Below are positions 19,965-53,439 of a stretch of DNA of 64,000 bases, in pieces (positions within the stretch are counted from its first letter, which is position 1; every line of letters starts with the position of its first letter). The notes below the pieces were generated by a model. That model was not told where the DNA came from. It saw only the letters and a program-made list of their open reading frames with translations, and did not search any database. The DNA comes from Diogma glabrata (lineage: Eukaryota > Arthropoda > Insecta > Diptera > Cylindrotomidae), in assembly GCA_963693315.1 (NCBI GenBank), contig OY856188.1, forward strand, positions 196,062,379 through 196,126,378. The letters run 5' to 3'. The position numbers were made by a program, and so were the translations under genes.

Positions 19965-20458
19965 CTATTCCGTTAGGCGTTTTAAATTTTTTAGCAAGGA
20001 CCTCACGTATTACGTCCTCCGTGGTCACTTCGTCCCTATGTTTGACTTCTAATATTGTCTGGTTCTAAGTTTTTACTTCCGCTTCTGCTCCCACTACTCT
20101 CTCTATTTGCTCTTGGAAGACTGAAATTGGTCCTGCATATCTTCTTATTTGTATCTCCAGCAATAGGTCCCCTTTACCTCTTTGCCTTATGTGAGTAACT
20201 TTTTCTCCTAGCTCCGTCAAATCATTTGCCTTCACTTTTTTAAATATCTCTTCATGTGTGAGCGAGCTTGTTTTTTATCAGAAGAGCATCTGGTTTGCAG
20301 AAATGTCCACGTTGTATTTTTGACGCTTTTTTACTCTTTTTCTTCGTTTTTCTACTTACTTGCTATGGTATTTCGTCCGTGGCTGCGGCTTTTGTTTTGG
20401 TCGCCATTTGTGTCCGCTATAGAAGGGGTGCCATATCTTTCACACTCAATTCATATGG
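19965..20458 (-). pseudogene. Gag/ORF1-like fragment of a retroelement, interrupted by element B
   Basis: On the minus strand the frame reads VKANDLTELGEKVTHIRQRG, then GDLLLEIQIRRYAGPISVF, EAEVK, a stop, and ILEVKHRDEVTTEDVIREVL. This matches the pre-zinc-knuckle region of ORF1/Gag proteins of R1/jockey-like LINEs (family pattern 'IRxxxxGxLLLEL ... xVxIRDLDExTTxEEVxEAL'). The N-terminal side (MATKTKAAATDEIP...) holds stops. The sequence continues across element B at 35372-35560 (..RDERVRYGATEAKYQSGF..). The fragment abuts the full A-LTR at 19964, so it may belong to A or to a separate LINE captured in A. Confidence 0.5.
20455..20458 (+). repeat. Target site duplication ATGG, left copy (element B)
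   Basis: ATGG immediately precedes the TGTAATGG start of the 5' LTR of B and recurs at 35368-35371 immediately after the ...CATTACA end of the 3' LTR. Confidence 0.9.
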
Positions 20459-21812
20459 TGTAATGGATAGTCTGGGATAACGTAGTATATTATGGTCGCA
20501 GTTTCCTTAGTTGTTGTTCCTTATATTAATCTGTACCACTTGTAATAGATTCTCATCCCTTCGTCATCAATAGTCATATTTCATGTAGTTTCCTTAACCC
20601 ATAGTTTCCTTATATTTCTCAAAATCTACTAAATCTGCAATAGCCGGACAAACGTATGGGAGAAAGAAAATTACACTAATTACCTAGAATTATTTATTCA
20701 TTGATATAACACAATATTGGTTAATTTGAATTAATTAATAATTTTCCTTAATCATCATCCGTATAATCACTAAAAATTAATCAGAATTTAATCTTACAAC
20801 GCACTAAAATTGACGCGCGTTGTGCTTCCATTCGATTGTCCTCGCCTTACTACTTGAGTTTGAACTTTTTTTTGTTTCAAAACACAAACCGTAATGAAAT
20901 AACGAAATTCTCAAAACCTCACAACAGCTACGTGTATTTTGTTCCCAATCGTCAACATACAACGAATTACTATTTCTGCTTGGTTAAACATTTGATTTGT
21001 CTTTGTATGAGTGTTTTGCTTTAAACAATCCTTCCGTGATTGATCTGAACTTCACGGTATTGATATTGCAGAATGTAGTTATTAAATGTCTAAACATCAC
21101 TACATTGATCGAATCTGTATTTGATTCATTTTGAATTCAATTATACGTGTTATGAATGTGTCGGAAATATTGGGGATCCCAACCTTATTTTTAGTACAAT
21201 ATTATCAAGTAGCAAACGGTTTTGTGAACTATAATAAGTTCCCAATAATTTGAAAATCTGATGTAAATTAATTATCTCTCATCTAAATACTTTATTCGAG
21301 TTATTGCGAGATTAAAAATTTGACTATATAATGAGCACGGTAACTTATTCTCTCGCTGAGTTCAATTAGCGATTCACATAGTACTCGCGCAATCTATTAC
21401 ATTCGCATTATGTTGTTGCATTTTTGACGTTCAAGTCAAAAATTCTAATTATCCGTGCGGGACATGGATATCGTTTTTCTGATTCATGTGCGATTTTTTT
21501 CAATTTGTTCAGTGTTAGTTGTTATAGCTTAAATAAAATTTTATTGTGTGATTTAGTGTAATTAGGGAGACTTGCTACCTCTAATATTAAATAATACAAC
21601 CATTGTGCAAGTGGATCTGCTGAGGTTGAGATAGCGGTAGAATTAGCGGAAAGCGGTTTGTTTAGAATGCCGTGATTAAAAAGGTAAAGAATCATGTATA
21701 ATTGCTTGTCTCATAGTAAATTAGAACAAACAAATTGAAAATTGCTCAGTGAACGAAACTGAACATACCTAGATGTTTCGTAATAAATTTGACACAAATA
21801 ATATTAGTGAAA

Positions 21813-22225
21813 ACCTGTAAATTCTTGTATGCTTGTTAGTAAATGTAAATACTAATTTATTTAGTGAAAAGAACTGTAAATTTTGTTATGATTCATAGTA
21901 AATGCATGTAGTAATTTATTTAGTGAAAAGAACTGTAAATTCTGTTATAATTCATAGTAAATGTAAATAGTAATTCATTTAGTGAAAAGAACTGTAAATT
22001 TTGTTATGATTCATAGTAAATGCATGTAGTAATTTATTTAGTGAAAAGAACTGTAAATTCTGTTATAATTCATAGTAAATGTAAATAGTAATTCATTTAG
22101 TGAAAAGAACTGTAAATTCTGTTATGATTCATAGTAAATATAAATAGTGATTGATTTAGTGAAAAGAACTGTAAGTTCTGTTATGATTCATAGTAAATGT
22201 ATATATGAAAGTTGTCTGGTGAGCA
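21813..22225 (+). repeat. 59-bp tandem array inside the 5' LTR of B, about 7 units
   Basis: Units of about 59 bp begin AACTGTAAATT and contain GATTCATAGTAAATG and TTATTTAGTGAAAAG. Units 2-5 alternate between two variants (TTTTGTTATGATT/GCATGTAG and TCTGTTATAATT/GTAAATAG), so a two-unit block was itself duplicated. The same array is at 33277-33689 in the 3' LTR. A regulatory (enhancer or termination) role is possible but not shown. Confidence 0.85.
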
Positions 22226-22689
22226 ACCGTAAATTCATGCTTGATTAATAGTATAAGTAAAATATTACTAGTTCCATAAAATCAACTAATAAACCTGTAA
22301 TTTAGTGTTTGTTCAGAAATAATTTAAAAAACAAGGGGAATCAGACGAAAACGGCTCTGGTTCAGTACAAGATTGTAAATTGTTACTTGTTTAGAATATC
22401 GTTAAATTAATGCTTGATTGAATAATAAAAAGAAGAGAATAATAACTGTTTTGATTATCGCCTTGGTCGATAGGGAATACGAAAAGTTGAAAGTATTGAG
22501 GGCGGGAGCGAAAGAATCAACCTAAAGGAAATTTGAATTTATCTATGGGTATCTTCAACACGCCATTTGAATCAAATTTTTGCTACTAATGCCATATCTT
22601 ATACCTATTTCAACGCAACCTTCCTGGAAGTGTCTTTGTTATTACTGCCATATTGATATAGAGTTTTTTTTGGTTATTGCCACCGTATA

Positions 22690-23310
22690 GCAACGCATTA
22701 TTTATATACCGTTCTTGCTGATAATATCGTATTTTCTACACAACATTTTTACCAAATTTTGGCTATTACAACTGATTATTTATATACCAGTTTTTTTTTG
22801 CTGATACTATCGTATTTTCAACGCGACATTTTTACAATATTTTGGGATATTGCAACTGATTATTTATATAAAATTTTTGCTGATATTATCGTATTTTCAA
22901 CGCAACATTTTTACAATCTTTTGGGATATTGCCACAGATTATTTATGTAAACTCTTTGCTGATATTATCGTATTTTCAACGCAGCATTTTTACAAAATTT
23001 CGGAATATTGCAACTGATTAATTATATAAAGTTTTTGCTGATATTATCGTAATTTTCAACGCAACATTTTTACAAAATTTTGGAATATTGCAACTGATTA
23101 ATTATATAAAGTTTTTGCTGATATTATCGTAATTTTCAACGCAACATTTTTACAATATTTTGGGATATTGCAACTGATTATTTATATACAATTTTTGTTG
23201 ATATCATCGTATTTTCAACGCAGCATTTTTACAAAATTTCGGAATATTGCAACTGATTAATTATATACAATTTTTGCTGATACTGACATATTTTCAACTC
23301 CATATTTACA
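22690..23310 (+). repeat. About 79-bp tandem array inside the 5' LTR of B, about 7-8 units
   Basis: Units contain TGCTGATATTATCGTATTTT, CAACGCAACATTTTTACAA and ATATTGCAACTGATTA. The first copies (from about 22610) are more diverged than the later ones. Open frames that run through this array arise from the repeat unit. The matching array in the 3' LTR is at about 34154-34774. Confidence 0.85.
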
Positions 23311-23906
23311 CCAACTGGTTTGCTATTGCTGCCGAACTGACCACGCACCAGTGGATTATCCGTTCATTTATTTTTGTAATACCATACCTGTTGGATGAAT
23401 CATCACTGATGGAGGGCTAAGGCCGAAGGACTTGGACGACTGGAGGATTAATCATGGGGTGAGTGGACTTGTTTTATTATCTTTATTTTTTTTGTTGTCT
23501 AACGTAAAAGTGGGAATGTGTGTGAGAGGGCGAGTCAGTGATTGAATGCCCGGGTGAATGTTGGTATGTGTGAAGTGTGAATGTGTGGGCGAACGATAGT
23601 ATGCGTGAAGTGTGAGTGTGTGAGCGTCTGAGAGTGATTGTGGGGGGGGTTGGACGTGTGGATCGTGGGTCTTTCGCCAATGGGGTCGCCAGAGTCTCCT
23701 TTTTCACACTTGTATTATTTTTTTTCTCATTTCTGCAAATTCTCGTAAATAGCGTACATTTCTGTATTTGTGCTGAAGTAGCAGGGTTACTTTATCGTTC
23801 CCATGGGCTGAAGCTAGTTTGGGGCTTGAAAATCAATCTCGCTAGGTACGCTTCCTGCTATGTCCTTCTCATTGGTTCGCCACTGAGAAAGCGCTTCATT
23901 ACAAAT

Positions 23907-23925
23907 TGGCGCCCAACGTGGGGCT
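23907..23925 (+). promoter_or_regulatory. Primer-binding site for lysine tRNA (element B)
   Basis: TGGCGCCCAACGTGGGGCT lies 3 bp after the end of the 5' LTR. It is complementary to the CCA-tailed 3' end of the fly lysine tRNA (CUU anticodon), whose T-arm/acceptor sequence I recall as ...AGCCCCACGTTGGGCG-CCA: 19 of 19 bases. The tRNA primes minus-strand DNA synthesis here. Confidence 0.85.
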
Positions 23926-26064: not shown

Positions 26065-27627
26065 ATGTCTGCCGCTGATAAGATTGACGTTCTGGATAGG
26101 TCCAGCTCTTGTGCTGTTTGTCAACACGAAATAGTGCCGGCCGACGTAAAACTTCTCACTCGGTGTAACCACCTCTTTCATGACATCTGCCTCAACGACT
26201 GGTTGTTGCAGAATCGCACCTGCCCAATTTGTCGAGCCGCTTGTGAGCGTGCAGAATTACAAAGGTTACCCCGAGGGATGGATAAATCTAATGATACTGT
26301 GGTACCACCTCCACCGAGACCTGTGACTCGCTCTATTACCGCAGGTTGGCCACGTCGTCCTAGTATTGGAAAGCAACACTCTTCCACTCCCTTGGCAAAC
26401 CAACTCCCACGACCTAGACTCGCCGATGAAGTGCGAGTGAATATAGCTCAACGATCTCCCATATATGGTGCCGCTGCAGCGGAAGATCACGGTTTTCAGG
26501 AAGCGGTAAATGCACACATCGATCAGGAAGTTTCGAGAATTAATCACTCAATGATGCAATCACGTGCTCCAGCACCTGAAGTGTTGTTACCTCTAGCACC
26601 AATTGCAGTATCACCCACCACCCCGCGTCATCCATCGGTTCATTCAAATTATACGCCAGTAAATGCGTTTGTGCAAAATAATGTACCAGTACCACCAATG
26701 TTTGCTGAACCTCATCCTGCTCTTGCTCCAGCTAGAATACGAACACATCTCGATCAGCACTCTACCACAGTTAGAAATTGGAACGTAACGTTCTCAGGCA
26801 GACCCGATGGTCTGGATGTTGAAGCATTCATCTTCAGGATAGAGCGGCTGACAGAGATGTGTTTAAATAGCGATTTTTCTATTGTTACCCGTTGTCTGTA
26901 CCTGTTGTTCACCGATCGAGCAGCTGATTGGTTCTGGAGATATTTTCGCCAGAACCGACAGCTTATTTGGACTGACTTATGTCATGCTCTGCGAATAGAA
27001 TTTCGGGACCGGCAGACGGACGAAGAGATAAAGGAGCGGATGAGGGCCAGGAAACAGCGGCCCACTGAATTGTTTGACGAATTCTTACAATCAATTTATC
27101 GACTGGCGGATAAACTTCGAGTACCGATGTCGGACGCAGAGTTATTATCCTTGATACGCAACAATTTACGATTGGAAATTAGGAGGGAACTACTTTATGT
27201 CACCGTTTATGGTCTGGAACATCTGCGCCAGCTCTGCCGTGATCGCGAAAAATTATGGGCCGAGTCAATAATCAGACCGCGAGATTATATCAGTAGACCA
27301 TCTAGACCGGTGTCAGAAGTAGACTTGGTTAGTGAATTCTCACAAATTCAAATTAGCGAAATGCCAACTGAATCGCTACCAATTGCATCCAACGAACTCG
27401 CGGCAATACAGCCCGCCCCTAATATGAGACGAATAACCAGTTCAACTATTTGTTGGAACTGTAAACGACCTGGTCACCGGTGGCACGATTGTCGTGAATC
27501 ACAGCGTTTGTTTTGTTGGGGATGTGGGAAGGATGATGTATTGTGTCCTAATTGTGAAAATTGTCGGGGAAACCGAAGGGGGGGCCAGAATCCCAACACC
27601 TTTTCTCGCTCCCAGGACACCTCTTAG
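26065..27627 (+). CDS. Gag with N-terminal RING-H2 finger (element B)
   Basis: Gag builds the virus-like particle and packages element RNA. The first ATG is at 26065 (MSAADKIDVLDRSSS), giving 520 residues. The frame is open upstream only through codons without ATG. Domains in order: a RING-H2 finger at residues 16-56, with C16-x2-C19, C34-x-H36-x2-H39-x2-C42 and C53-x2-C56 (RCNHLFHDIC and CPIC are textbook); a Pro-rich linker to about 235; a Ty3/gypsy Gag core at about 235-400 (NVTFSGRPDGLDVEAFIFRI, then DRAADWFWRYF, then ELFDEFLQSIYRLAD). Next come a CCHC zinc knuckle at about 462-476 (CWNCKRPGHRWHDC) and a second Cys cluster (CWGC...CPNC..C). All eight RING ligands are present, so E3 ubiquitin ligase activity is plausible but unproven. 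The 3' end overlaps pol by 67 nt in the -1 frame. Confidence 0.9.
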   Translation: MSAADKIDVLDRSSSCAVCQHEIVPADVKLLTRCNHLFHDICLNDWLLQNRTCPICRAACERAELQRLPRGMDKSNDTVVPPPPRPVTRSITAGWPRRPSIGKQHSSTPLANQLPRPRLADEVRVNIAQRSPIYGAAAAEDHGFQEAVNAHIDQEVSRINHSMMQSRAPAPEVLLPLAPIAVSPTTPRHPSVHSNYTPVNAFVQNNVPVPPMFAEPHPALAPARIRTHLDQHSTTVRNWNVTFSGRPDGLDVEAFIFRIERLTEMCLNSDFSIVTRCLYLLFTDRAADWFWRYFRQNRQLIWTDLCHALRIEFRDRQTDEEIKERMRARKQRPTELFDEFLQSIYRLADKLRVPMSDAELLSLIRNNLRLEIRRELLYVTVYGLEHLRQLCRDREKLWAESIIRPRDYISRPSRPVSEVDLVSEFSQIQISEMPTESLPIASNELAAIQPAPNMRRITSSTICWNCKRPGHRWHDCRESQRLFCWGCGKDDVLCPNCENCRGNRRGGQNPNTFSRSQDTS

Positions 27628-30600
27628 ACTCATCTGAGCCTAAAAATAGTTTGTCTCCTGATCCTTCAAATATTTCATCAACTAGTCCCAATAACCTATT
27701 AGTGCACAATACAATGTTGAACCGAGCTTCAACATCCAATTTGATAGAACACTCTTGGAATACTCTACCTGTAAGTATTTCAAACAGAGACGAAACAGAT
27801 AATAATTCCATTATCGTCACCCCTGAAACACCGATTACAAATGCGACTTTTAATGATTTGGTACCCACTCATGATACTGATATGAAATTATTGAAACGAA
27901 CACCCGTTCATACTGAACCACCTCCATTATGGACCAAAAACAAATCGTTCCAACAACGATTGAACGAATACCTGAAGGTGCGCTCAAACATATTTGTCGA
28001 TTCATTATCATCTTTGAAACTTCCATCGCGCTCTGCGCTCCGTTCTCGTATTTATTGGCAACAACGGCATTTGTTTAAAACTAAAACCATTTCCTCTATT
28101 GTGAAATTGGCCAACGATGTGAGATCTTATGCCACAGTGTCAATATTGGGTAAACAACATACTGGACTGTTGGATAGTGGAGCGTCCTTGACTGTAATTG
28201 GTGGTGATTTTGCTAAAGAAATCGTACAGACTCCAGACCTTCTGACTTATTCGTCTGCCGTAGTTCGTACTGCCGATGGCCAAAGACAGAAGATCTTGGG
28301 GTTTGTAAAAACAAAGATTGCATTTATGAACCAAGTCAGAACCCTGGACGTCTTCATTATCCCGTCTTTGACTCAAAATCTATATCTAGGTATAGATTTC
28401 TTTAACGCTTTTGGTTTGTTTAACCCGATATTTAACTTACCTACATTTTCGACTACGGAGTCAGGAATTTCAGAATTGTCTATGGACAATCAAGCACGTC
28501 TACAAAACACTATTCAGCTTCTACCATCATTTTCAAAAATGGGTCTGGGTCGAACACATTTGTTGGAACACGTTATTGATGTGGGGACTGCAGCTCCCAT
28601 CAAGCAACGACACTATCCAATTTCGCCCGCCATTGAGAAACTGATGGGAGAAGAACTGGATAGGATGTTATCTCTGGGTATTATAGAGGTTTCTAACAGT
28701 CCTTGGTCGAGTCCCGTGGTCTTAATTCGCAAACCTGGGAAGAATCGTCTTTGTTTGGATAGTAGAAAGGTCAATACAGTTACTAAGAAGGATGCTTACC
28801 CCCTCCCACAGATAGATGGAATCTTGAGTCGGCTGCCACAAAGTAATTTCATCTCCAGTTTGGATCTGAAAGACGCTTTCTGGCAGATACCGTTAGAAAA
28901 ACACTCCCGAGAGAAAACTGCTTTTACGGTCCCAGGGCGGCCATTGTATCAGTTCGTAAGAATGCCTTTCGGACTGTGCAATGCGCCGCAAACAATGACC
29001 AAATTGATGGACCAAGTAATTCCTCCACATCTCAAGTCGTGCGTCTTCGTATACTTGGATGATCTTCTAATAGTTACAGATACCTTTGAGGCCCATCTGA
29101 AACTGTTAGAAGATATCTCCCAGTGTCTTAGACGTGCGAACTTGACGATAAACGTGGAAAAAAGTAAGTTTCTCTTGCCGGATGTAAAATATTTGGGATA
29201 TGTAGTGGGAGGTGGTAAGCTAAAAATTGATCCTGATAAAACGCAAGCTATTTCTGAATTTCCTACACCGCGTACGTCCAAACAGATTCGACGATTCCTG
29301 GGTATGGCGGGTTATTATCGCCGTTTTATATCCGATTTCTCTGCTATGTCCTCTCCTATATCAGATTTGTTGAAGAAAAATTCTAATAAATTCGTATGGA
29401 CACCAGAAGCTGAGATAGCATTTATAAATCTCAAAAATGCTCTCATATCAGCACCAGTCCTCATAAACCCCGACTATACTAAACCTTTTACTCTCCAGTG
29501 CGACGCTAGTAATGACGGTATAGGCTGTGTATTACTTCAGCGTGACATGGACGGTATGGAACATCCCATAGCGTACATGTCCAAGAAACTAAATTCTGCG
29601 CAACGCAATTACTCAACTAGTGAGAAAGAGTGTCTAGCCGCCGTACTGGGAGTAAAGAAATTTAGAGCGTATGTCGAGGGTCAGGCCTTTAAGATCATAA
29701 CTGACCATGCTTCATTAAGATGGTTAATGCAACAAAAAGACCTTTCTGGTCGATTGGCTCGTTGGAGCTTGAAATTGCAGGGTTACGTCTTTGATATTGA
29801 GTACCGAAAAGGAAAATTAAATACTGTTCCTGACACTCTATCAAGACGTGACTCTGTCGACATCATTTCTGAACTATGTCCAGTGCCTGAATTAGATCTT
29901 AATTCCCCTTTCTTCAACACTTCTCGATATTTGGAGTTGGTAAATCTGGTTACCGAAGCAGACGGTACATTGCCTGATCTGAAAGTAATTTCTGGTCGGG
30001 TTTATAAACGATTGGCTTGTCTAGATCTTGATATTCCTTCAGAGGGTGAGGTCTGGAAATTGTGGTTACCTGAGGAATACACTGACGAGTGTATTGCAAG
30101 GGCCCACAATCCTCCTACCTCATCTCATGGAGGTCTAGCAAAAACCTTGTATAACATTCGTAAATTTTACTATTGGCCTCGTATGTATACCCAGGTTAAA
30201 TCTTACATAGGAAATTGTAAGACCTGTAAAGAAATCAAAGCGACTAATGTTCCACTTCGTGCTCCCATGGTGTCCCAAATGAAAACAGAACGAGTTGGAC
30301 AGCGATTATATATCGATATTCTTGGCCCTTATCCTCGTTCAAAGGCCGGGAATATCGCTATCCTTGTAGTATTAGATCATGTTACTAAATATCCATTTTT
30401 ATTTCCTTTACGGAAGCTAACCGCTGAACCAATTTGTCATCTATTGGCTACCAATGTCTTTCACGTATTTGGTTGTCCCGAAGTTATTGTGTCCGATAAT
30501 GGGACGCAGTTTAAGTCTAAACTATTTGGAGATTTCTTGGCGAAGCACGGAGTGAAACATACATTACTAGCGCTATATTCACCTCAAGCTAACGCTTCGG

Positions 30601-31130
30601 AACGGGTAAATAGAAGTGTTTTATCTGGTATTAGAGCCTATTTAAAGGAGGAACATTCTAAATGGGATATGCACTTGAGCGAGATCGCTTGTGCACTACG
30701 TTGTTCCCTGCATCAAACACTGAAATGTTCCCCATATTACGCAATGTTTGGAATACCTATGGTGACTCATGGTTCGTCCTATGAACTGCTGAGACGATTG
30801 AATAGTCTTCATGATCCAGGTGAAACGATTCTGCGACCTGATTATCTTAATAAGATTCGAATTCGAATTCTTGATTTAACTGCCGAGGCATTTGTCAAAA
30901 GTGCTGAAAGATACAATTTACGAGCTCGAGTAACTTTGTTTAAACCAGGTGATACGGTGTTCCGAAGGAACTTTATCTTGAGTGACGCCGATAAGAAGTT
31001 ATCTGCTAAACTTGCACAGAAGTTTATTGAGACCAGAGTAATAAGGTTGGTAGGTGGTTCCGCCTACGAACTGGAGGACCTGGTTTCTAAACGTAGAGGT
31101 GTTTATCACTCCAAGGACATTCGTGCCTAA
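27561..31130 (+). CDS. Pol polyprotein: protease, RT, RNase H, integrase (element B)
   Basis: Translated by frameshift from gag; about 1180 residues, no internal stop. Protease: GLLDSGASLTVIGG (about residue 200). RT: LDSRKVNTVTKKDAYPLPQI, SSLDLKDAFWQIPL (motif A), FGLCNAPQTM (motif B), FVYLDDLLIV (motif C, YLDD, about 498). RNase H: LQCDASNDGIGCVLLQ, YSTSEKECLA, ITDHASLRWLM. Integrase: an HHCC zinc finger (HNPP...SHGG...NCKTCK, about 848-890), then the DDE core with D in YIDILGP, D in VSDNGTQF and E in NASERVNRS. The C-terminus has a GPY/F-like segment (AQKFIETRVIRLVGGSAYEL). All catalytic residues I can check are present. There is no chromodomain and no downstream env. Confidence 0.95.
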   Translation: MSGKPKGGPESQHLFSLPGHLLDSSEPKNSLSPDPSNISSTSPNNLLVHNTMLNRASTSNLIEHSWNTLPVSISNRDETDNNSIIVTPETPITNATFNDLVPTHDTDMKLLKRTPVHTEPPPLWTKNKSFQQRLNEYLKVRSNIFVDSLSSLKLPSRSALRSRIYWQQRHLFKTKTISSIVKLANDVRSYATVSILGKQHTGLLDSGASLTVIGGDFAKEIVQTPDLLTYSSAVVRTADGQRQKILGFVKTKIAFMNQVRTLDVFIIPSLTQNLYLGIDFFNAFGLFNPIFNLPTFSTTESGISELSMDNQARLQNTIQLLPSFSKMGLGRTHLLEHVIDVGTAAPIKQRHYPISPAIEKLMGEELDRMLSLGIIEVSNSPWSSPVVLIRKPGKNRLCLDSRKVNTVTKKDAYPLPQIDGILSRLPQSNFISSLDLKDAFWQIPLEKHSREKTAFTVPGRPLYQFVRMPFGLCNAPQTMTKLMDQVIPPHLKSCVFVYLDDLLIVTDTFEAHLKLLEDISQCLRRANLTINVEKSKFLLPDVKYLGYVVGGGKLKIDPDKTQAISEFPTPRTSKQIRRFLGMAGYYRRFISDFSAMSSPISDLLKKNSNKFVWTPEAEIAFINLKNALISAPVLINPDYTKPFTLQCDASNDGIGCVLLQRDMDGMEHPIAYMSKKLNSAQRNYSTSEKECLAAVLGVKKFRAYVEGQAFKIITDHASLRWLMQQKDLSGRLARWSLKLQGYVFDIEYRKGKLNTVPDTLSRRDSVDIISELCPVPELDLNSPFFNTSRYLELVNLVTEADGTLPDLKVISGRVYKRLACLDLDIPSEGEVWKLWLPEEYTDECIARAHNPPTSSHGGLAKTLYNIRKFYYWPRMYTQVKSYIGNCKTCKEIKATNVPLRAPMVSQMKTERVGQRLYIDILGPYPRSKAGNIAILVVLDHVTKYPFLFPLRKLTAEPICHLLATNVFHVFGCPEVIVSDNGTQFKSKLFGDFLAKHGVKHTLLALYSPQANASERVNRSVLSGIRAYLKEEHSKWDMHLSEIACALRCSLHQTLKCSPYYAMFGIPMVTHGSSYELLRRLNSLHDPGETILRPDYLNKIRIRILDLTAEAFVKSAERYNLRARVTLFKPGDTVFRRNFILSDADKKLSAKLAQKFIETRVIRLVGGSAYELEDLVSKRRGVYHSKDIRA
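27579..27585 (+). promoter_or_regulatory. Candidate -1 ribosomal frameshift site G_GGG_GGC
   Basis: In the gag frame the bases read G GGG GGC, which fits the X XXY YYZ slippery pattern, within a run of seven G. A -1 slip here moves ribosomes exactly from gag into the pol frame, 43 nt before the gag stop. The pol frame has no ATG near its 5' end (first in-frame ATG near 27714), so it must be made as a fusion. A downstream pseudoknot was not identified. Confidence 0.7.
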
Positions 31131-31922
31131 CATCGGCAATAATTTTTTTCTGCCAGTATGATAGTAACTTACGTGCGTGTTTCACCGCCATGGTAAGTCA
31201 AGACTATCGACGACCATAAAGTATGAGGGTAGTTTCATCTTGAATTCACAGTTCAGCGAGTGTGTATCAACTTTGGTGTTCGGGTCTTGGTTCAAAATTT
31301 TTTTTGTGTAGACTATTTGCCAGCGAAAATACCGTGATCGAATGTATTGAATGTGGCTCAATTAGTTGCTTTGAACCTATGTGAACGGCTTTTTTTCTCA
31401 GCCTTCAGAGTCACTGGGACGGAAGCGTACAACAGTGTGGCCCGGCTAGCTCAGTCGGAGAAGTATGAGACTCGTGTTAGTTCAGGTGTGGGTTGCGAGC
31501 CTGCATAACGCAAAGACGAAATTGTGTCGGACGTTTCATTAAAGGAGTCGGTCCAATGGTGTTTTTTTTTCTTTTCGATCTATAGCAGATTGAATAAATT
31601 TTTTTTGTGACTTTAGAGTCTCGGGAACCCCCAGATCTGCCCGAAATTGGGTCTGGAAGAAGTTAGTTATCCACCGCTTGCAATAGAGTAGAATACTGAT
31701 TTTATCGATACCCCTCCCAAAAGTTTTTTATATTTTTAGATACTTTGTTACTTTGTTTCTGCTAAGACTGAGTTCGTAATACTGATCGCATTGATTGCTA
31801 ATCTGTGGTACGTCGAGGTGCTTCACCAAGCTAATATGTATATACAAGGTCTATTGGCGATCAGCCTATGCCTTTTTCAACTTCCTTTTGGTCGTAGGTG
31901 TTCGTCCAAAAAGCACTTGTTC
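31131..31922 (+). other. 3' internal noncoding region of element B
   Basis: It lies between the pol stop and the 3' LTR, 792 bp, with no ORF of note. It holds the tRNA-like segment at 31440-31512. The bases just before the LTR (...CGTCCAAAAAGCACTTGTTC) contain no clear polypurine tract, which is unusual, since plus-strand DNA synthesis normally starts from one. Confidence 0.6.
31440..31512 (+). pseudogene. Lysine tRNA-derived sequence inside element B
   Basis: GCCCGGCTAGCTCAGTCGG matches the 5' half of the fly lysine tRNA (acceptor strand, D-arm and A box) without mismatch. ATGAGACTC follows as in the anticodon stem. The anticodon loop is scrambled (CGTGTTAGTTC). The T-arm reads GTGGGTTGCGAGCCTGCA, a B box with a one-base insertion. 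The acceptor 3' strand is degraded (TAACGC). It cannot fold as a working tRNA. It corresponds to the tRNA matched by the element's own primer site. Confidence 0.75.
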
Positions 31923-34900
31923 TGTAATGGATAGTCTGGGATAACGTAGTATATTATGGTCGCAGTTTCCTTAGTTGTTGTTCCTTATATTAATCTGTAC
32001 CACTTGTAATAGATTCTCATCCCTTCGTCATCAATAGTCATATTTCATGTAGTTTCCTTAACCCATAGTTTCCTTATATTTCTCAAAATCTACTAAATCT
32101 GCAATAGCCGGACAAACGTATGGGAGAAAGAAAATTACACTAATTACCTAGAATTATTTATTCATTGATATAACACAATATTGGTTAATTTGAATTAATT
32201 AATAATTTTCCTTAATCATCATCCGTATAATCACTAAAAATTAATCAGAATTTAATCTTACAACGCACTAAAATTGACGCGCGTTGTGCTTCCATTCGAT
32301 TGTCCTCGCCTTACTACTTGAGTTTGAACTTTTTTTTGTTTCAAAACACAAACCGTAATGAAATAACGAAATTCTCAAAACCTCACAACAGCTACGTGTA
32401 TTTTGTTCCCAATCGTCAACATACAACGAATTACTATTTCTGCTTGGTTAAACATTTGATTTGTCTTTGTATGAGTGTTTTGCTTTAAACAATCCTTCCG
32501 TGATTGATCTGAACTTCACGGTATTGATATTGCAGAATGTAGTTATTAAATGTCTAAACATCACTACATTGATCGAATCTGTATTTGATTCATTTTGAAT
32601 TCAATTATACGTGTTATGAATGTGTCGGAAATATTGGGGATCCCAACCTTATTTTTAGTACAATATTATCAAGTAGCAAACGGTTTTGTGAACTATAATA
32701 AGTTCCCAATAATTTGAAAATCTGATGTAAATTAATTATCTCTCATCTAAATACTTTATTCGAGTTATTGCGAGATTAAAAATTTGACTATATAATGAGC
32801 ACGGTAACTTATTCTCTCGCTGAGTTCAATTAGCGATTCACATAGTACTCGCGCAATCTATTACATTCGCATTATGTTGTTGCATTTTTGACGTTCAAGT
32901 CAAAAATTCTAATTATCCGTGCGGGACATGGATATCGTTTTTCTGATTCATGTGCGATTTTTTTCAATTTGTTCAGTGTTAGTTGTTATAGCTTAAATAA
33001 AATTTTATTGTGTGATTTAGTGTAATTAGGGAGACTTGCTACCTCTAATATTAAATAATACAACCATTGTGCAAGTGGATCTGCTGAGGTTGAGATAGCG
33101 GTAGAATTAGCGGAAAGCGGTTTGTTTAGAATGCCGTGATTAAAAAGGTAAAGAATCATGTATAATTGCTTGTCTCATAGTAAATTAGAACAAACAAATT
33201 GAAAATTGCTCAGTGAACGAAACTGAACATACCTAGATGTTTCGTAATAAATTTGACACAAATAATATTAGTGAAAACCTGTAAATTCTTGTATGCTTGT
33301 TAGTAAATGTAAATACTAATTTATTTAGTGAAAAGAACTGTAAATTTTGTTATGATTCATAGTAAATGCATGTAGTAATTTATTTAGTGAAAAGAACTGT
33401 AAATTCTGTTATAATTCATAGTAAATGTAAATAGTAATTCATTTAGTGAAAAGAACTGTAAATTTTGTTATGATTCATAGTAAATGCATGTAGTAATTTA
33501 TTTAGTGAAAAGAACTGTAAATTCTGTTATAATTCATAGTAAATGTAAATAGTAATTCATTTAGTGAAAAGAACTGTAAATTCTGTTATGATTCATAGTA
33601 AATATAAATAGTGATTGATTTAGTGAAAAGAACTGTAAGTTCTGTTATGATTCATAGTAAATGTATATATGAAAGTTGTCTGGTGAGCAACCGTAAATTC
33701 ATGCTTGATTAATAGTATAAGTAAAATATTACTAGTTCCATAAAATCAACTAATAAACCTGTAATTTAGTGTTTGTTCAGAAATAATTTAAAAAACAAGG
33801 GGAATCAGACGAAAACGGCTCTGGTTCAGTACAAGATTGTAAATTGTTACTTGTTTAGAATATCGTTAAATTAATGCTTGATTGAATAATAAAAAGAAGA
33901 GAATAATAACTGTTTTGATTATCGCCTTGGTCGATAGGGAATACGAAAAGTTGAAAGTATTGAGGGCGGGAGCGAAAGAATCAACCTAAAGGAAATTTGA
34001 ATTTATCTATGGGTATCTTCAACACGCCATTTGAATCAAATTTTTGCTACTAATGCCATATCTTATACCTATTTCAACGCAACCTTCCTGGAAGTGTCTT
34101 TGTTATTACTGCCATATTGATATAGAGTTTTTTTTGGTTATTGCCACCGTATAGCAACGCATTATTTATATACCGTTCTTGCTGATAATATCGTATTTTC
34201 TACACAACATTTTTACCAAATTTTGGCTATTACAACTGATTATTTATATACCAGTTTTTTTTTGCTGATACTATCGTATTTTCAACGCGACATTTTTACA
34301 ATATTTTGGGATATTGCAACTGATTATTTATATAAAATTTTTGCTGATATTATCGTATTTTCAACGCAACATTTTTACAATCTTTTGGGATATTGCCACA
34401 GATTATTTATGTAAACTCTTTGCTGATATTATCGTATTTTCAACGCAGCATTTTTACAAAATTTCGGAATATTGCAACTGATTAATTATATAAAGTTTTT
34501 GCTGATATTATCGTAATTTTCAACGCAACATTTTTACAAAATTTTGGAATATTGCAACTGATTAATTATATAAAGTTTTTGCTGATATTATCGTAATTTT
34601 CAACGCAACATTTTTACAATATTTTGGGATATTGCAACTGATTATTTATATACAATTTTTGTTGATATCATCGTATTTTCAACGCAGCATTTTTACAAAA
34701 TTTCGGAATATTGCAACTGATTAATTATATACAATTTTTGCTGATACTGACATATTTTCAACTCCATATTTACACCAACTGGTTTGCTATTGCTGCCGAA
34801 CTGACCACGCACCAGTGGATTATCCGTTCATTTATTTTTGTAATACCATACCTGTTGGATGAATCATCACTGATGGAGGGCTAAGGCCGAAGGACTTGGA

Positions 34901-35367
34901 CGACTGGAGGATTAATCATGGGGTGAGTGGACTTGTTTTATTATCTTTATTTTTTTTGTTGTCTAACGTAAAAGTGGGAATGTGTGTGAAAGGGCGAGTC
35001 AGTGATTGAATGCCCGGGTGAATGTTGGTATGTGTGAAGTGTGAATGTGTGGGCGAACGATAGTATGCGTGAAGTGTGAGTGTGTGAGCGTCTGAGAGTG
35101 ATTGTGGGGGGGGTTGGACGTGTGGATCGTGGGTCTTTCGCCAATGGGGTCGCCAGAGTCTCCTTTTTCACACTTGTATTATTTTTTTTCTCATTTCTGC
35201 AAATTCTCGTAAATAGCGTACATTTCTGTATTTGTGCTGAAGTAGCAGGGTTACTTTATCGTTCCCATGGGCTGAAGCTAGTTTGGGGCTTGAAAATCAA
35301 TCTCGCTAGGTACGCTTCCTGCTATGTCCTTCTCATTGGTTCGCCACTGAGAAAGCGCTTCATTACA
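31923..35367 (+). repeat. Element B 3' LTR, 3445 bp
   Basis: Same length as and nearly base-for-base identical to 20459-23903. The visible difference is GAAAGGGCGAG (near 34988) against GAGAGGGCGAG in the 5' copy. It ends CATTACA at 35367 and is followed by the ATGG duplication at 35368-35371. Confidence 0.92.
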
Positions 35368-35371
35368 ATGG

Positions 35372-39466: not shown

Positions 39467-41450
39467 TTATTTTAAACTCAAATTAATAAAATTATTTTTT
39501 AAAATACATTTGAACCTGTTTTTGGACATGCCAAACTCAAACAACTCATAAAACTCATTAAAGTTTGACGAGATAACGTTAATAGGCTCTTGACAGCCAT
39601 AATTAGTACGGTGAAAGTTTAATGATAAGAATAAGCGAGTTCTGAGATTTCTGGAAGGAACATAAAAATTGAGTCCTTCCAAAAGACAAGGGGACTGCAC
39701 TCTGTTTTCGAGGAGATCTGCAACAAACAAGGCTCCAGTAATATGTCTCCGGTACTCCAATGACTCCAAATTAAAATTGACACACTGGACAGTATAAGGT
39801 GGAAGAGTTTTCCTGTTTTCCCAATTTGCAACATTGTGGTTAAAATTGAACAACCTGAATTTACCGACAAGATAGAAAAAAAATTTTTTTTGGACTCGTT
39901 CAATTCTTTTAATATCTGTAATATGAACAGAACTCCATACTGTTACAGCATATTCTAAATTACATCTAACATAGCATGTATATATACGCAGTAATGTGAT
40001 TAGGCATTTAAATTCTCTACCCACCCTGAAAAGAAAACCCAACATGGATAAAGATTTGGCCACTATTTTATCAATATGTAGATTGAATGACATTTGAAAG
40101 TCAAAGTGTACTCCTAAATCACAAATTTCAGATACTCTAATTAAAATAGTGTTTAAAAGTTTGTAGGGATAATATATAGGAGCATAGTTTCTATGATAAG
40201 ACATCACTTTACACTTAGTTACATTTAGCTGAAGCATGTTTGTTTCACACCATAGCTGAAACTTATTCAGATCATCTTGAAGACTTATGCAATCATCAAG
40301 AGTTTTTATAGTATAGTACAATTTTATATCATCAGCATATATAAGAACTTTGCAGAATTTAAAAACATTGACAACATCATTAATACATAAAATGAATAAT
40401 AGCGGTCCAATATGCGACCCTTGAGGAACACCTGAGTGCACAGATATATTAGTACACCTTAACCCATTTATCTTAACAGTTTGGGTTCTATTTGATAAGT
40501 AAGATTGAATCCACCTAATAAAATTATCATCTAAGCCATACTGGTGTAGACTGTCAAGGATCACAATATGGTTTATATAATCAAAAGCTTTACTAAAGTC
40601 AGTATAAATGACTTCCAGTTGAACCTTTGATTCCACAACCTTTATTGCAGCACCAGTAAACTCCATTAAGTTTGTAGAAGTAGATTTGCCTTTGCAAAAC
40701 CCATGCTGATGAACGGAAATCATTTCTTTACATTTATCAAAAAGATAATCAGTTACAATACTTTCAAATAATTTTGGAATAGCAGACAAAACAGAGATTC
40801 CTCTATAATTTGTCACATCTGAACGGGATCCAGACTTAAAAATTGGTATAATATCTGAAATTTTCCATTTAGTTGGAAAAATTTCAGAAGAAAGGGATAA
40901 ATTAAATAAAACAGATAAAGGTTAAGACAAAAGATGACTATAATCTTTTAAAAAACTTACAGGAATGCCGTCAGGACCACACCCTTCTTTAAGAGACATA
41001 ATCACATTAACGATTTGAGCCGAAGAAATTGTTGGTACAGATACAATTGGAAAAGTATTGGAATTCCTAGTAGAATTGAATTGGGATGTGTTACTGTCCA
41101 GTTTATATACGTTTTGAAAATACTTTGCAAATAACTCACACATATCATTAGTATTATTTGCAGTTTCACTGTCAAACCGCATTTTTGATGGAATAACTGA
41201 GGTTTTGCGTTTTGAGTTGACAAATTTCCATAGTTTCTTAGGGTTGGTATTAATCTCAAACTCCACATTTGACAGGTAATTCCTATACGCATCAAGTTGC
41301 TTTTTATCAAATTCACCTTTAAGCTTACGAAAAACATTTTTATCCGCAGATAGTTTCGATTTTAAAAATTTTTTACTTGCTTTATTTTTACGATTACGCA
41401 AATTTATTAAACTTCTGTTAAATCATGGAGGATAGTTATTATTGAAGTTA
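39467..41450 (-). pseudogene. LINE ORF2, RT part
   Basis: Starts (minus strand) with YNFNNNYPP-stop-FNRSLI, a TGG-to-TGA change in the usual PPWF motif. Then NRKNKASKKFLKSK and LKEGCGPDGIPVSFLKDYSH (41401-40922). A broken stretch follows around 40920-40816, then a clean frame: VTNYRGISVLSAIPKLFE, HQHGFCKGKSTSTNLMEF, VIYTDFSKAFDYINH (motif A), HSGVPQGSHIGPLLFI (motif B), VLIYADDIKLYY (motif C) and the C-terminal region to 39467. All RT catalytic aspartates are present. The protein is separated from its endonuclease by the insertion at 41444-43253. Confidence 0.8.
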
Positions 41451-42529
41451 TACTTCTTTGCGCTCGTTGTAAATATTTTGATGGGGTGTTAAACGAGAAA
41501 CCGCGTCACGCTGTTTCAAGTTATATTTTAACCTTTATGCTGTATGGTAATAAAGACGAAATTAGTAAATCAACCTTATGCTGTAAGGTAATAAAGACGA
41601 AATTACTAAATCAATCATATTTTATAATAATAAAACATTATTCGCTTAGTTATCTTTGATCAATTTTTTTTTTCACTTTTCGGAATTATCATTAAAATGA
41701 ATAGTTAATGTATAATGTGACAAACAAATGTGTACATTTATATGAAAATTATGTTAAATTATTTTTTAACAAATACATATTTCTAATTTACAACAAATAT
41801 GTTCTTATGGTTTGCAATTATATAAAATATGTACATATTTCTATGCATTAGCACCAATACGATACATATAAGCATTGCTTATATATGATTAAACAAACCT
41901 GCTTGCATTAGCAGAACTGCCCTCACATGTTCCAAAAATTGGAAATTGTCGTTTCTTTTCCTCTTCTTAGAAACATTGATGAACCAAGAATTTGCATTTG
42001 AACCTTAGTACCGAAGAAAAAGATTATGAACAATATCAAAGTTACAGATTTAAAGTGTTTTACTTATTGAGTGATATATGCTTCTCCATTACTTTCAAAA
42101 CTATTATTGTTATTGCAAGGGATCTATAAAATGTATGCAAATATGTTAACATATGTTGTGATTTGACTGTTTTAATAATAATATATGTCTGAATTTACAA
42201 ATGAAATTAGTCTTATTATTATTTTTTCCAATTTTTGTTTTAAGTTGTGGGAAGGAATGTCGAAATAAGACGATGACCATAAAGCAATAAAACCCATTAA
42301 ACGAAAATATTCACTAAAAATGGTGGTACTTTTTAATCGGCCGGCGTATGCATCAATGGAGTAGAGTATTGCAGACAATCGATAAAATATATTTGCAAAT
42401 TGCAATACGACCCTCTTCAGAACAGCAAAATATCTGGATTGATAAATGATTATAAGTCTACATGAAATAGGACGCTAAACCAATAGCAATGAACCAGTGT
42501 ACCTATATTTTGTATGACGAGTACGGTGG

Positions 42530-42640
42530 CTTCGGAGTAAGTAATTGACAATTGTGACATCCAATAAACAAATATATTTACGCTCACCTAATTGTTCGTT
42601 ACACATTGAATTATTTGAATCAAATCTTTGGAATAAAATT
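42530..42640 (-). pseudogene. Third Daphne-like LINE scrap
   Basis: The plus-strand words GAGTAAGTAATTGACAATTG, TGTGACATCCAATAAACAAA and GTTCGTTACACATTGAATTA line up with 15650-15735 and with 57705-57785 of the two longer Daphne-like copies. It is about 100 bp with no usable frame. Confidence 0.6.
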
Positions 42641-42984
42641 TTAACTTTTTTCTAACCCTAATCTTTTGCCATCTACATTTATAAAAATTATTTAATTATT
42701 ATTTGCCTGTCAATGTGTTTTAATTTTAACATACATTTAATATGTAAATTTATCTATAGCTTTAGAGACATTTACTTAATGGCTTTTGCTGACTGCAAAA
42801 TGATACTATTACATTTTTTCAAACTTTTTATATATTACTAATAAAATAAGTTAAATTAAATGACATTACAAAAAACTATCGGACAATTTACTCAAAAAAA
42901 AAGCAGTTTTCAACCACTTTATCTGGGAGCATGGGCATCGCCGTGCGGGTGTACCTTCTAGTAATTAATAACTATACGTTCTTA

Positions 42985-43190
42985 TACTTTTTGAATAATA
43001 ATTTTTTTTTCGAATAATATTTTTTTTTATTTATTTTTTGAATAATATGTTTCTTTTTTTTATATTTTTTTTTTTTGAATAATATTTTTTTTTTTGCATA
43101 ATATTTTTTTCTTTTGAATAATATTTTTTTTCTTGAATAACATTTTTTTTTTGAATAATATTTTTGTTTTTTTTTTAGTTATTTTTTTTA
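42985..43190. repeat. GAATAATATTTTTTTTT low-complexity array
   Basis: About ten imperfect units of GAATAATAT followed by 7-12 T. It is next to the right inverted end of the insertion and a short GTCT/GTGT tract. Confidence 0.8.
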
Positions 43191-43239
43191 ATGTATCCTA
43201 TCTGTCTGTCTGTGTGCGTGTGTGCGAGCAAATGGGCAA

Positions 43240-44229
43240 AGAAGTATAACTTCCACCGTCTGGTCCGACGCAGACCCTACTTTTTTTATCAACAACGATA
43301 GGAACAAATTTTTCAATACCCTCATATAAAATGTTATAAAAAGAACCAACTTTTCCATCTAGATCAGAGTGCGCAAAAAGTATATCCCAGTCAATGTTAG
43401 CCAAAAACAGATTCAATTGAATTTTGTCACTTTTTTTAAAATTAAACATACACAAATTATCATTTTTCTTATTATAAGCCTGAAAATCTTCGACTTTCAA
43501 TTGAATTTCATAAGATTTATGATTAAGATCATTACGAACAAACGGATTTAGTGATTCTAAGACAATACACAAGTTAACATCTTTTGTAAAAACCAGATCT
43601 AAAAATCTATCATAAAAGTTACTTATACTATTAATTTGAACCAAATCACAAGCTAAAATTGAGTCAATACAATGAGACTCGATAGTAGTTTTAACGTTAA
43701 CGGGCAGCAAACTTCCATTTTCAGCTACATCATCTTTTATCCATCTTACTTGCGATAGATTAAAATCACCAAGCAATAAAACATTATCATTAAAATTACA
43801 TTTTGATGTAATCTCGGTGATGCAAATACAATAGAGAACATATTTTTCAAGCGGAAGCGATGGAGGAACATAAATTCCAAATACAAATATTAATTTCGAA
43901 TTGAAATTCAATTTAACACATACAAGTTCAATGTTGTAATTACTAGTATCCACTAATTCACTGCTAATGGATTTATGTACAGCAATTAATACGCCACCTC
44001 CTGATGATTTATTACTATTGAATGAGTTTCTATCACAACGGTATACTAGATAATCAGATGAGAAGAATTCCGCACTATTTACAGATGGGTGAAACCAAGT
44101 TTCCAGTAAGACATACGCCGACAAACAATTCGATAACAAAAATCTTTGAAATTCACTGGCTTTTGATGACATTCCATTAACATTTTGAAAATAAACAGTT
44201 AAATTTTGTACAATTGGAACAGTTGGCAT
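43240..44229 (-). pseudogene. LINE ORF2, APE-type endonuclease part
   Basis: ATG at 44229 (MPTVPIVQNLTVYFQNVNGM). Apurinic-endonuclease motifs: N in YFQNVNGM, E in LLETWFH, Y/D in FGIYVPPS and VLLLGDFNL (catalytic GDFN), then LDLVFTKD and a DLNHKSYEI segment where an S-D-H motif is usual (here LNHK). The frame ends in the insertion after KFVPIVVDKKS. The last residues (CVGPDGGSYTS...) come from inserted sequence. The start overlaps the ORF1 stop as TAATG, which suggests termination-reinitiation. Confidence 0.8.
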
Positions 44230-45194
44230 TATCTGTTTTTTATACTGGTTAGAGGCAATCTTGGAAAATTTACATGACTTCTAGCTCTTATTTCAAATTC
44301 CTTTACCAAAACACCTGGTGGCCACAATGATAAATCGGTCAGTCTTGTAAAGTCTTCATTTTTTAAACCCAACTTGAAAGAAGAGTAAGATGGTGACGAA
44401 TCTTGTTGCGAACGCGACTTTATATTAAGAACTTTTACATCAACAACCTTTAATTTATCGTTAATAAATTTCTTGATGTGATCAATTGATGTATCAGGCG
44501 CGATTCTAGATAGAAATAACCATTTAATTGGCGGAACAGTATTTAACGTAATCTCCTCCTCATTAATGTTAATACCAACAGCATTAGGCTGATTTAATTT
44601 ATCAGGTGTTGCATTATTATTTTTACTCGAAGCGATGTTAATTTTAGCACGAGACTGACCAGAGTTAGTTGGTAAATTAGCAGAATTATTCGTTTCTGAA
44701 GAAAGTGAAAGTGTTGGAGTTTGTTCCAAAGTAGCATTTACTGTTGTAGTCGATGACCTAGGTGTTGCTATCCTATCCGTTTGATTCTTCAGAGCTTCTG
44801 GTAAATACGTTTTCCCTTGAACAGCAGCTTTCGAGACAGATCGTGTTGCACGACGATCATCACCAACAGTATCTTTATCTCTAATATGATGATTTTTATC
44901 AATTTGGCATGAGAAATCATTTTCCATACTCTTGAGCATCTTATCAACGACAGTATACAAATTATTGACACTATTCTTACAATCAGAACAGAACCAATTC
45001 AATCCAGCGATACCGTCCGTTATTATTTTTATAGCTTTCTTAACATCATTGGGAAATTTCATTAACAGTTTATTTGCACTGGCAGCAGCACAATTGTAGC
45101 TAATAATTTTGCTACACATAAATCCACTGCAAGAGAAAAACCATTCATCAACTACAATTACATCACAGTCAAAACACTTTTTTTCGATTGACAT
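44229..45194 (-). CDS. LINE ORF1 with N-terminal PHD-like zinc finger
   Basis: ATG at 45194; 321 residues, uninterrupted. The N-terminus has a C4HC3-like series: CFDC, CSGFMC, YNCAAAS and, after a helix, WFCSDC, resembling the PHD-type finger found in ORF1 of CR1-group LINEs. A Ser/Thr/Asn-rich linker follows (about 110-210). The C-terminal part (PPIKWLFLSRIAPDTSIDHI...VKVLNIKSRSQ...FKLGLKN) looks like an RRM-type fold, as expected of an RNA-binding ORF1. It ends in ...SIKNR with TAA sharing its last two bases with the ORF2 ATG. Confidence 0.8.
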   Translation of the reverse strand: MSIEKKCFDCDVIVVDEWFFSCSGFMCSKIISYNCAAASANKLLMKFPNDVKKAIKIITDGIAGLNWFCSDCKNSVNNLYTVVDKMLKSMENDFSCQIDKNHHIRDKDTVGDDRRATRSVSKAAVQGKTYLPEALKNQTDRIATPRSSTTTVNATLEQTPTLSLSSETNNSANLPTNSGQSRAKINIASSKNNNATPDKLNQPNAVGININEEEITLNTVPPIKWLFLSRIAPDTSIDHIKKFINDKLKVVDVKVLNIKSRSQQDSSPSYSSFKLGLKNEDFTRLTDLSLWPPGVLVKEFEIRARSHVNFPRLPLTSIKNR

Positions 45195-51987: not shown

Positions 51988-52173
51988 GGCATTCGATATT
52001 CGGTGTTTGCGAAGTAAACATCAAATTATCAAGTTATAATCAAATTTTTTCAATATTAAAATTTCTAACTGTGTTTTATTTTTTGTTTGGATTTGTTGTT
52101 AGTTATAAATTCAAATCAAATTAAAGTTAAACATTGAAATATAAATTGATTGTTTTGTGATTATTGTGTGGGG

Positions 52174-53424
52174 ATGCTCACAAATAAAAGAACTATACGT
52201 CGCCAGATGCGTAGCCTCCCTAGGAGCTCGCTCAGCAGCATTAAACAGATGAGTCAAGGCATTAAAATGAGTGACATCCCAACAGTAAACAGGTATGCAG
52301 GTTTACCGCCTAACGTTAATTTATCAAAATATGCAAAAACATCGCAAACTAGTTCTCCGTATGGTGAAAGTTCTAGAAAACCTGTAGAAAAAATTCCTCC
52401 AATAATTACAAAATCTCCCTCAACGGAGATTCATAAAACTATGAAGGAACTAAATATTTCAAAATATAATATACAAATAATGTCAATTGGCATAAAAATA
52501 CTTACATATAGCCTATCAGACTATAACAAAATTTTTACTAAATTAAAAGAACATAACAATGGTATGTTCTCATATACGCTTGAGGAAAATCGTTTTGTTA
52601 AATTTTTACTATGTGGGCTCCATGATATGGATACAAATGAAGTTAAGAAAAGCCTCGAGAATAGTGGCCTGAGTCCTGTTAATGTTTGGAAAACTATTCC
52701 TAAAAAATATCGTCGAAACAGTGAAGATGCCCTTTATTTTGTTGCTTTCAAAAAGGGATCAATGTCTCTGAACCAATTAAAAAATATTAGATTTGTTAAT
52801 AACACAGTGTGCAGATGGGAAATTTGTCGATCCACCAGCAAAGGTCCTCTCCAATGTTATAAATGTAAAATGTATGGTCATGGAGCGAACGCATGCTACA
52901 TGAAGCCAAAATGTAATTTCTGTGGTGGAGATGAACAAATTGATGATATGGAGTGTCCTTTACAAAACGATATTACTAAACATGTTTGCTGTAATTGTAG
53001 TGGAAATCATACATCTAACTCTATAATTTGTCCAGAAAGAGAAAAATACATTCAAATAAAAAATCATCTGAATCTAAAAAATAAGTTGAGTCGACCTTCA
53101 AATCAACCAACGTTTTCATTTCAACAACAGGATTTTCCTATTCTTCCTTCAATACCTCATCAAAACAACAATAAAAATTTTAATAATAATAATAATAATT
53201 TTGTTAACAAAAAAATGCAGTTCAGTACAGTGGTTCAAACAAATGCAATCAATCATGAAAATTCAATTAATATTAATTCAGATAGCACAAATGATTTGTT
53301 TGCACCACATGAGTTATTACAAATTCTCAAAGAACTTGTTTCAGGACTTCGGGGGTGCCATTCCAAAGAAGAACAATTTGATGTTATGGCTAATATTGCT
53401 ATTAAATATGTCTGTTATCCATAA
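52174..53424 (+). CDS. Jockey-type ORF1 (Gag, PRE_C2HC + CCHC knuckles)
   Basis: Nucleic-acid-binding Gag of jockey-clade LINEs. The first ATG in frame is at 52174 (MLTNKRTIRRQMRSLPRSS); the frame is open upstream but only through non-ATG codons. Residues about 135-230 form the PRE_C2HC-type region (RFVKFLLCGLHDMDTNEVKK, SGLSPVNVWKTIPKKYRR, RWEICRSTSKGPLQC). Zinc knuckles follow: CYKCKMYGHGANAC, CNFCGG... and CCNCSGNHTSNSIIC. An Asn-rich stretch (NNNKNFNNNNNNF, about 53165-53205) precedes the C-terminus. The frame is intact to TAA at 53422-53424. Confidence 0.88.
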   Translation: MLTNKRTIRRQMRSLPRSSLSSIKQMSQGIKMSDIPTVNRYAGLPPNVNLSKYAKTSQTSSPYGESSRKPVEKIPPIITKSPSTEIHKTMKELNISKYNIQIMSIGIKILTYSLSDYNKIFTKLKEHNNGMFSYTLEENRFVKFLLCGLHDMDTNEVKKSLENSGLSPVNVWKTIPKKYRRNSEDALYFVAFKKGSMSLNQLKNIRFVNNTVCRWEICRSTSKGPLQCYKCKMYGHGANACYMKPKCNFCGGDEQIDDMECPLQNDITKHVCCNCSGNHTSNSIICPEREKYIQIKNHLNLKNKLSRPSNQPTFSFQQQDFPILPSIPHQNNNKNFNNNNNNFVNKKMQFSTVVQTNAINHENSININSDSTNDLFAPHELLQILKELVSGLRGCHSKEEQFDVMANIAIKYVCYP

Positions 53425-53439
53425 TTCTTTAAAAATTTG

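Follow-up and report, generated by a model that had tools for sequence, protein, structure and literature searches.

Retrotransposon Gag proteins that carry a RING domain have been recorded before. A 2013 paper, in the portion covered here, places a RING in the 531-amino-acid Gag of Isis-like, an element of Calliphora vicina belonging to the Osvaldo lineage of Gypsy. The same source reports the domain for Osvaldo of Drosophila buzzatii and, in a supplement legend, indicates one for a Pao element too (PMC3630058). For elements of D. virilis, a RING domain is named in the legend to a figure (PMC12910113), and three further papers mention Osvaldo with no mention of a RING in Gag in the passages covered (PMC12992720, PMC7334843 and PMC5408442). 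Here we describe a further case of this already published architecture, carried by a long terminal repeat (LTR) retrotransposon of 14.9 kb that is complete at both ends. It lies in a stretch of 64,000 nucleotides from the cylindrotomid fly Diogma glabrata (GenBank assembly GCA_963693315.1, contig OY856188.1, positions 196,062,379 to 196,126,378 of the forward strand), hereafter called the window and numbered from its first nucleotide. A first-pass annotation of the window, made from the letters alone, knew of no standard insect gypsy family in which Gag begins with a RING, a statement overturned by the accounts of Isis-like and Osvaldo that have been in print since 2013 (PMC3630058, as far as covered). 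What has so far been known as annotation is extended here by two observations, namely that, of four Gag regions compared among copies, the RING is under the strongest constraint, and that 16 divergent families of Gag in one genome all have a RING in the same position. We found no functional study of RINGs in retrotransposon Gags in the open-licence PMC literature, a coverage that leaves subscription papers mostly outside.

According to the covered part of its description, Isis-like shares with the Diogma element a RING in Gag (531 against 520 amino acids), a CCHC motif, a separate pol open reading frame (ORF) and a 4-bp target-site duplication (TSD). Its LTRs of 2577 and 2574 bp are also long and it is said to lack env, and its total length is 10,995 bp against 14.9 kb, with LTRs of 3445 bp, for the element in the window; the comparison is one of published description and not of sequence (PMC3630058). 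Isis of D. buzzatii, assigned like Osvaldo by the covered passages to the Osvaldo/Ulysses group of gypsy elements, differs in that its RING is reported absent and env present (PMC3630058, PMC5408442).

The gag ORF (26065-27627, plus strand; 520 amino acids), defined by the ORF list, its translation and Pfam, runs in one unbroken frame from an ATG at 26065 to a TAG at 27625-27627. Its first 57 residues (26065-26235) hold a complete C3H2C3 RING-H2 finger (C16 to C56; 26110-26232, plus strand). The eight ligands listed in the first-pass annotation (C16, C19, C34, H36, H39, C42, C53 and C56) proved exact in the translation, and its statement that the finger shares an uninterrupted frame with a Ty3/gypsy Gag core and CCHC knuckles also stood, given that Retrotrans_gag passes its Pfam cut-off (residues 281-368; 33.2 bits against 24.1) and the knuckle letters are present. 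The RING assignment itself was confirmed by profile, with zf-RING_2 scoring 40.7 bits (cut-off 27.3; E = 2.9e-10) and zf-rbx1 34.9 bits (cut-off 31) on the same Gag, and these E-values rule out a chance motif.

When the protein was compared by phmmer with solved structures, the best relatives included the RINGs of Arkadia, RNF126 and RNF38 (E = 4e-10 to 6e-9). A first structure prediction, built on near-identical copies, had a mean predicted local distance difference test score (pLDDT) of 32; the AlphaFold2 model used here has block means of 70-89 across residues 11-70. Its RING superposes on that of RNF38 with a root-mean-square deviation (rmsd) of 1.1 over 51 columns (Foldseek E = 1.5e-3) and on that of RNF165, taken from a UbcH5b~Ub complex, with an rmsd of 0.9 over 48 columns. 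The Gag RING has in common with Arkadia, RNF38, RNF126 and RNF165 the C3H2C3 pattern, the residues of the E2 (ubiquitin-conjugating enzyme) face and the predicted fold, and unlike these proteins it is fused to a capsid protein. By analogy with known RINGs, we take V18, W46 and P54 to be E2-contact residues and R57 (26233-26235, plus strand) to be the linchpin, and all four are present in the window element. As the first-pass annotation had anticipated, with these residues in place and the model matching RNF38 and RNF165, the RING looks capable of binding an E2.

Other copies of the element in the same genome carry the same finger. Among 6649 candidate places, the 83 best-scoring ones, a sample in which copies cut off short of the RING would be under-represented, all cover residues 2-509 at an identity of at least 93%, and 80 of them have no internal stop (three have one). 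The RING is present in all 83. In the 28 copies read, which include the window's own, the eight zinc ligands as well as V18, W46, P54 and R57 do not vary. The first-pass annotation had made its reading depend on both of these points, and had also proposed to compare constraint in the RING with that in the Gag core. Across the 28 copies, the ratio of nonsynonymous to synonymous polymorphism (pN/pS) is 0.066 for the RING, 0.118 for the capsid (CA), 0.154 for the nucleocapsid (NC) and 0.238 for the linker. Variable codons with silent and amino-acid changes number 20:4 in the RING and 121:101 in the rest of Gag (Fisher one-sided p = 0.005; p = 0.037 for the RING against CA), all of these figures being descriptive since the copies share kinship. 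None of the other three Gag regions is as constrained as the RING among these copies.

A genome search with a RING profile, in which 150 of 1695 candidates were scored, found many of its top matches in open frames that are repeated and measure about 440-580 amino acids. Twenty representatives were fetched, and 19 of them show a RING, then CCHC, then more ORFs; L070, which is mostly masked, was excluded, leaving 19 sister loci, 17 of which have a reverse transcriptase (RT)-type YxDD motif. When the Gags with both RING and CCHC are clustered at a threshold of 80% identity, they fall into 16 families including the window's, and the other 15 align along the length of the window Gag at 31.9-38.6% identity. 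Pfam, run on ten of the 15, passes the zf-RING_2 cut-off in every case and that of Retrotrans_gag in nine. The 15 families were picked by RING profile and ligand pattern, so the constancy of their ligands follows from the way they were chosen, and the set cannot tell how often relatives lack a RING. W46 is kept in all 16 families, position 18 is V, I or L in all 16 and P54 is kept in 15, with the proviso that ranking by RING profile favours W and P. Because the order of RING, linker, capsid and knuckles is the same in all 16 families, common origin is the simplest reading, and the RING-Gag architecture is widespread in this genome.

At the 11 of 19 sister loci whose frame is intact, the RT regions are 69.5-77.3% identical to that of the window element, against 32-39% for Gag between families. 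This strong divergence of Gag, together with the linker, a possible substrate-binding part with the top pN/pS, would suit a role for the RING in antagonizing host restriction, in which assembled Gag ubiquitinates a silencing or restriction factor for degradation, a function put forward in the first-pass annotation along with ubiquitination of Gag itself. We consider such a role rather improbable, given that none of the four Gag regions has a pN/pS above 1, that fast evolution is expected of a disordered linker anyway, and that the substrate is hypothetical.

Relatives were also sought elsewhere. Searching proteins with the full-length Gag of the window returned no match among 7991 candidates. 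A profile of 22 Gag sequences gave five matches, of which three are named as E3 ligases (RNF38 twice and a putative E3), the other two being an ‘unnamed protein product’ and a nameless protein of 544 amino acids, and Retrotrans_gag is listed for none of the five; the candidate list of this profile was probably filled by RING words. A profile built on the Gag core alone, and hence independent of the RING, identified six Gag relatives among 4179 candidates. The three longest (488-540 amino acids), from other public assemblies, are annotated with both Retrotrans_gag and a RING, and read by eye they all keep the C3H2C3 pattern. The three short ones (242-292 amino acids) have no RING annotation and none visible in their letters; all three start with M, and may represent fragments or internal starts, or be Gags that truly lack a RING. 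With 83 of 83 copies, 15 further families, three homologues in other public assemblies and a published case, we rule out a private fusion, the capture of a host gene in a single copy or an assembly artefact, to which we allow practically no chance. The RING-Gag architecture and its conservation are, in our judgement, close to certain.

The RING is apparently not general to gypsy Gags, since nine other Retrotrans_gag loci show none in the pieces read. Six other Retrotrans_gag loci were fetched in partial sequence, and a RING is present in L081, a close relative, and absent from the fetched pieces of the other five. One of these, L082, shows 32% identity across 168 amino acids of the Gag core (E = 1e-25), and extending it slightly upstream and downstream still revealed no RING in the three plus-strand frames. 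In a sample based on the capsid, in which 20 of 150 scored Retrotrans_gag matches were picked by an ORF length of 494-581 amino acids, a RING stands where it is expected in 16 of the 20, and all 16 belong to the window's family or its close kin (RING region 73-100% identical). L095, L096, L106 and L107 have no RING at the expected position, the only one examined in those ORFs.

Given these data, we lean towards regarding the locus as a recent Osvaldo-type insertion whose Gag bears an old, inherited N-terminal RING-H2 finger acting as a capsid-tethered ubiquitin ligase (E3), a reading that as a whole we hold with somewhat better than even confidence. Whether the RING is an active E3 seems to us evenly balanced, and that Gag would be the main ubiquitination substrate is more doubtful. 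In the mechanism we propose, the finger would fold as a RING and bind a UbcH5-type E2 through V18, W46 and P54, with R57 as linchpin, and the capsid domain would cluster many RINGs as Gag assembles, creating a multivalent E3. The activity of many RING E3s is raised by dimerizing or clustering, which makes the capsid lattice a plausible ligase switch. The ligase would then be off in free Gag and switched on once Gag is in the particle. Gag itself would offer the lysines closest by, and the likeliest substrates would be Gag and proteins held at the particle. Ubiquitin attached there would modulate how the particle is assembled, trafficked or turned over.

The main rival explanation sees in the RING a zinc module with a structural or targeting role, similar to a matrix domain in serving dimerization, membrane or host-protein binding or RNA binding, and inactive as a ligase in most of the lineage. 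Two observations favour it and weigh against a uniform E3 role: the linchpin is Q in seven of the 16 families (R or K in nine), and the E2-contact Trp is replaced by F, C or V in the three homologues of 488-540 amino acids, the zinc ligands persisting in both sets. These observations indicate that the predicted zinc fold is retained more broadly than the canonical E2 face. On the other hand, W46 is not needed for zinc binding alone and is nevertheless found in 28 of 28 copies and 16 of 16 families (the latter subject to the RING-profile ranking noted above), and some of the RING structures matched were determined together with an E2. We view a purely structural module as possible, though on the unlikely side.

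The linker (residues 63-228; 26251-26748, plus strand) has mostly low pLDDT, and the capsid region (residues 229-420; 26749-27324, plus strand), which includes the Retrotrans_gag match, adopts a dArc capsid-like fold in the model. A CCHC zinc knuckle (residues 463-476; 27451-27492, plus strand) has the letters C-x2-C-x4-H-x4-C, with a Pfam score under the cut-off (14.2 against 20.8 bits) and ligands that are invariant in 22 of 22 aligned Gags. Equally invariant in the 22 is a four-cysteine motif (C484, C487, C497 and C500; 27514-27564, plus strand), a possible second zinc site.

The pol open frame (27558-31130, plus strand) overlaps gag in the -1 frame and encodes protease, RT, RNase H and integrase. 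Its Pfam domains (gag-asp_proteas, RVT_1, RNase H, H2C2 and rve) are in Ty3/gypsy order, the protease match at residues 193-283 falling slightly below its cut-off (26.7 against 28.2 bits; E = 8.7e-6). Within the overlap, the heptamer GGGAAAC (27567-27573, plus strand) has the X XXY YYZ form in the gag frame and is probably a -1 frameshift site. Another heptamer, GGGGGGC, follows 12 bases further on. The following ORF overlaps gag in the -1 frame at all 19 sister loci, and an in-frame TTTAAAC, GGGAAAC or AAATTTT occurs within the overlap at 13. No perfect heptamer was found in the overlap at L060, L061, L064 and L066, and near the gag stop L063 has only TTTTTTT and L074 only CCCAAAA. This pattern is suggestive of -1 ribosomal frameshifting at a conserved site, the type of heptamer having switched between families. 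In two copies of the element, L013 and L014, one extra G relative to the G7 run near the end of the window's gag joins gag and pol into a single frame of 1713 amino acids.

The element is bounded by LTRs of 3445 bp (5′ LTR, 20459-23903, TGTAAT...ATTACA; 3′ LTR, 31923-35367; both plus strand), which were delimited by self-BLAST and direct comparison, and by the TSD ATGG (20455-20458 on the left, identical to the four bases at 35368-35371 on the right). The two LTRs differ at only one of 3445 positions, and the insertion is therefore recent. Each LTR contains two tandem arrays, located in the 5′ copy at 21804-22261 (period of about 59 bp) and 22686-23310 (about 79 bp) and repeated in the 3′ LTR, which probably account in part for the great LTR length. 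The primer binding site (PBS) TGGCGCCCAACGTGGGGC (23907-23924, plus strand) begins 3 bases past the 5′ LTR and is the single exact match in the window, with 0 expected by chance. We read TGGCGCCCAACGTGGGGC as the complement of a tRNA-Lys 3′ end, the identity of the tRNA being our assumption; two sampled genomic sites of the pattern contain no tRNA gene. A 15-mer of the PBS has 1262 exact copies in the genome on both strands (0 for the reversed control), some of them a few kb upstream of listed gag matches, and this primer site may be the signature of very numerous elements. Between the end of pol and the 3′ LTR, the window's ORF list holds no ORF of at least 80 amino acids. A tRNA-Lys-like stretch with box A- and box B-like parts is visible by eye at 31440-31511 in the same interval, where ARAGORN and Rfam call no tRNA.

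Since LTR length, TSD and ORFs fit the Osvaldo lineage of Ty3/gypsy, the element very probably belongs to it. The 4-bp TSD is a feature of that lineage, and the 3445-bp LTRs exceed the published values, namely the 997-2055 bp said in the covered text of PMC3286476 to characterize the lineage and the 2577 bp of Isis-like. Osvaldo of D. buzzatii has, besides its RING (PMC3630058), a tRNA-Lys primer according to the passages covered (PMC3286476). The Osvaldo-like elements of Culex quinquefasciatus, as far as the covered passages describe them, have LTRs of about 1-2 kb, shorter than those in the window, and a tRNA-Lys PBS said to be invariant, and the table passage lists a 4-bp TSD in 17 of 20 rows and two ORFs in 12 of 20 (PMC3286476). 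One of them has a tRNA-Lys sequence inserted at the PBS, which may be compared with the stretch at 31440-31511, and the word RING is absent from the main text of that paper (PMC3286476).

Elsewhere in the window, pieces resembling non-LTR elements occupy 39467-45194 (minus strand) and 52150-54848 (plus strand). The former holds a frame for RT (39467-40816) and another for an endonuclease whose Pfam score stays below the cut-off (43198-44229), both on the minus strand. Pfam returned no match for the ORF at 44229-45194, whose start is rich in cysteines, or for that at 52150-53424.

A parallel to the capsid-tethered ligase exists on the opposite side of the conflict in the RING protein TRIM5alpha, with which the host exploits capsid-templated clustering. 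We suggest only tentatively, and with less conviction than for the locus itself, that a whole successful gypsy lineage encodes a particle-coupled E3, in which capsid assembly would activate the RINGs and the fast-evolving linker would set family-specific substrates. If this were true, ubiquitin signalling would be built into the replication particle of a retrotransposon, and whether a transposon brings its own ubiquitin ligase into its capsid is now a directly testable question.
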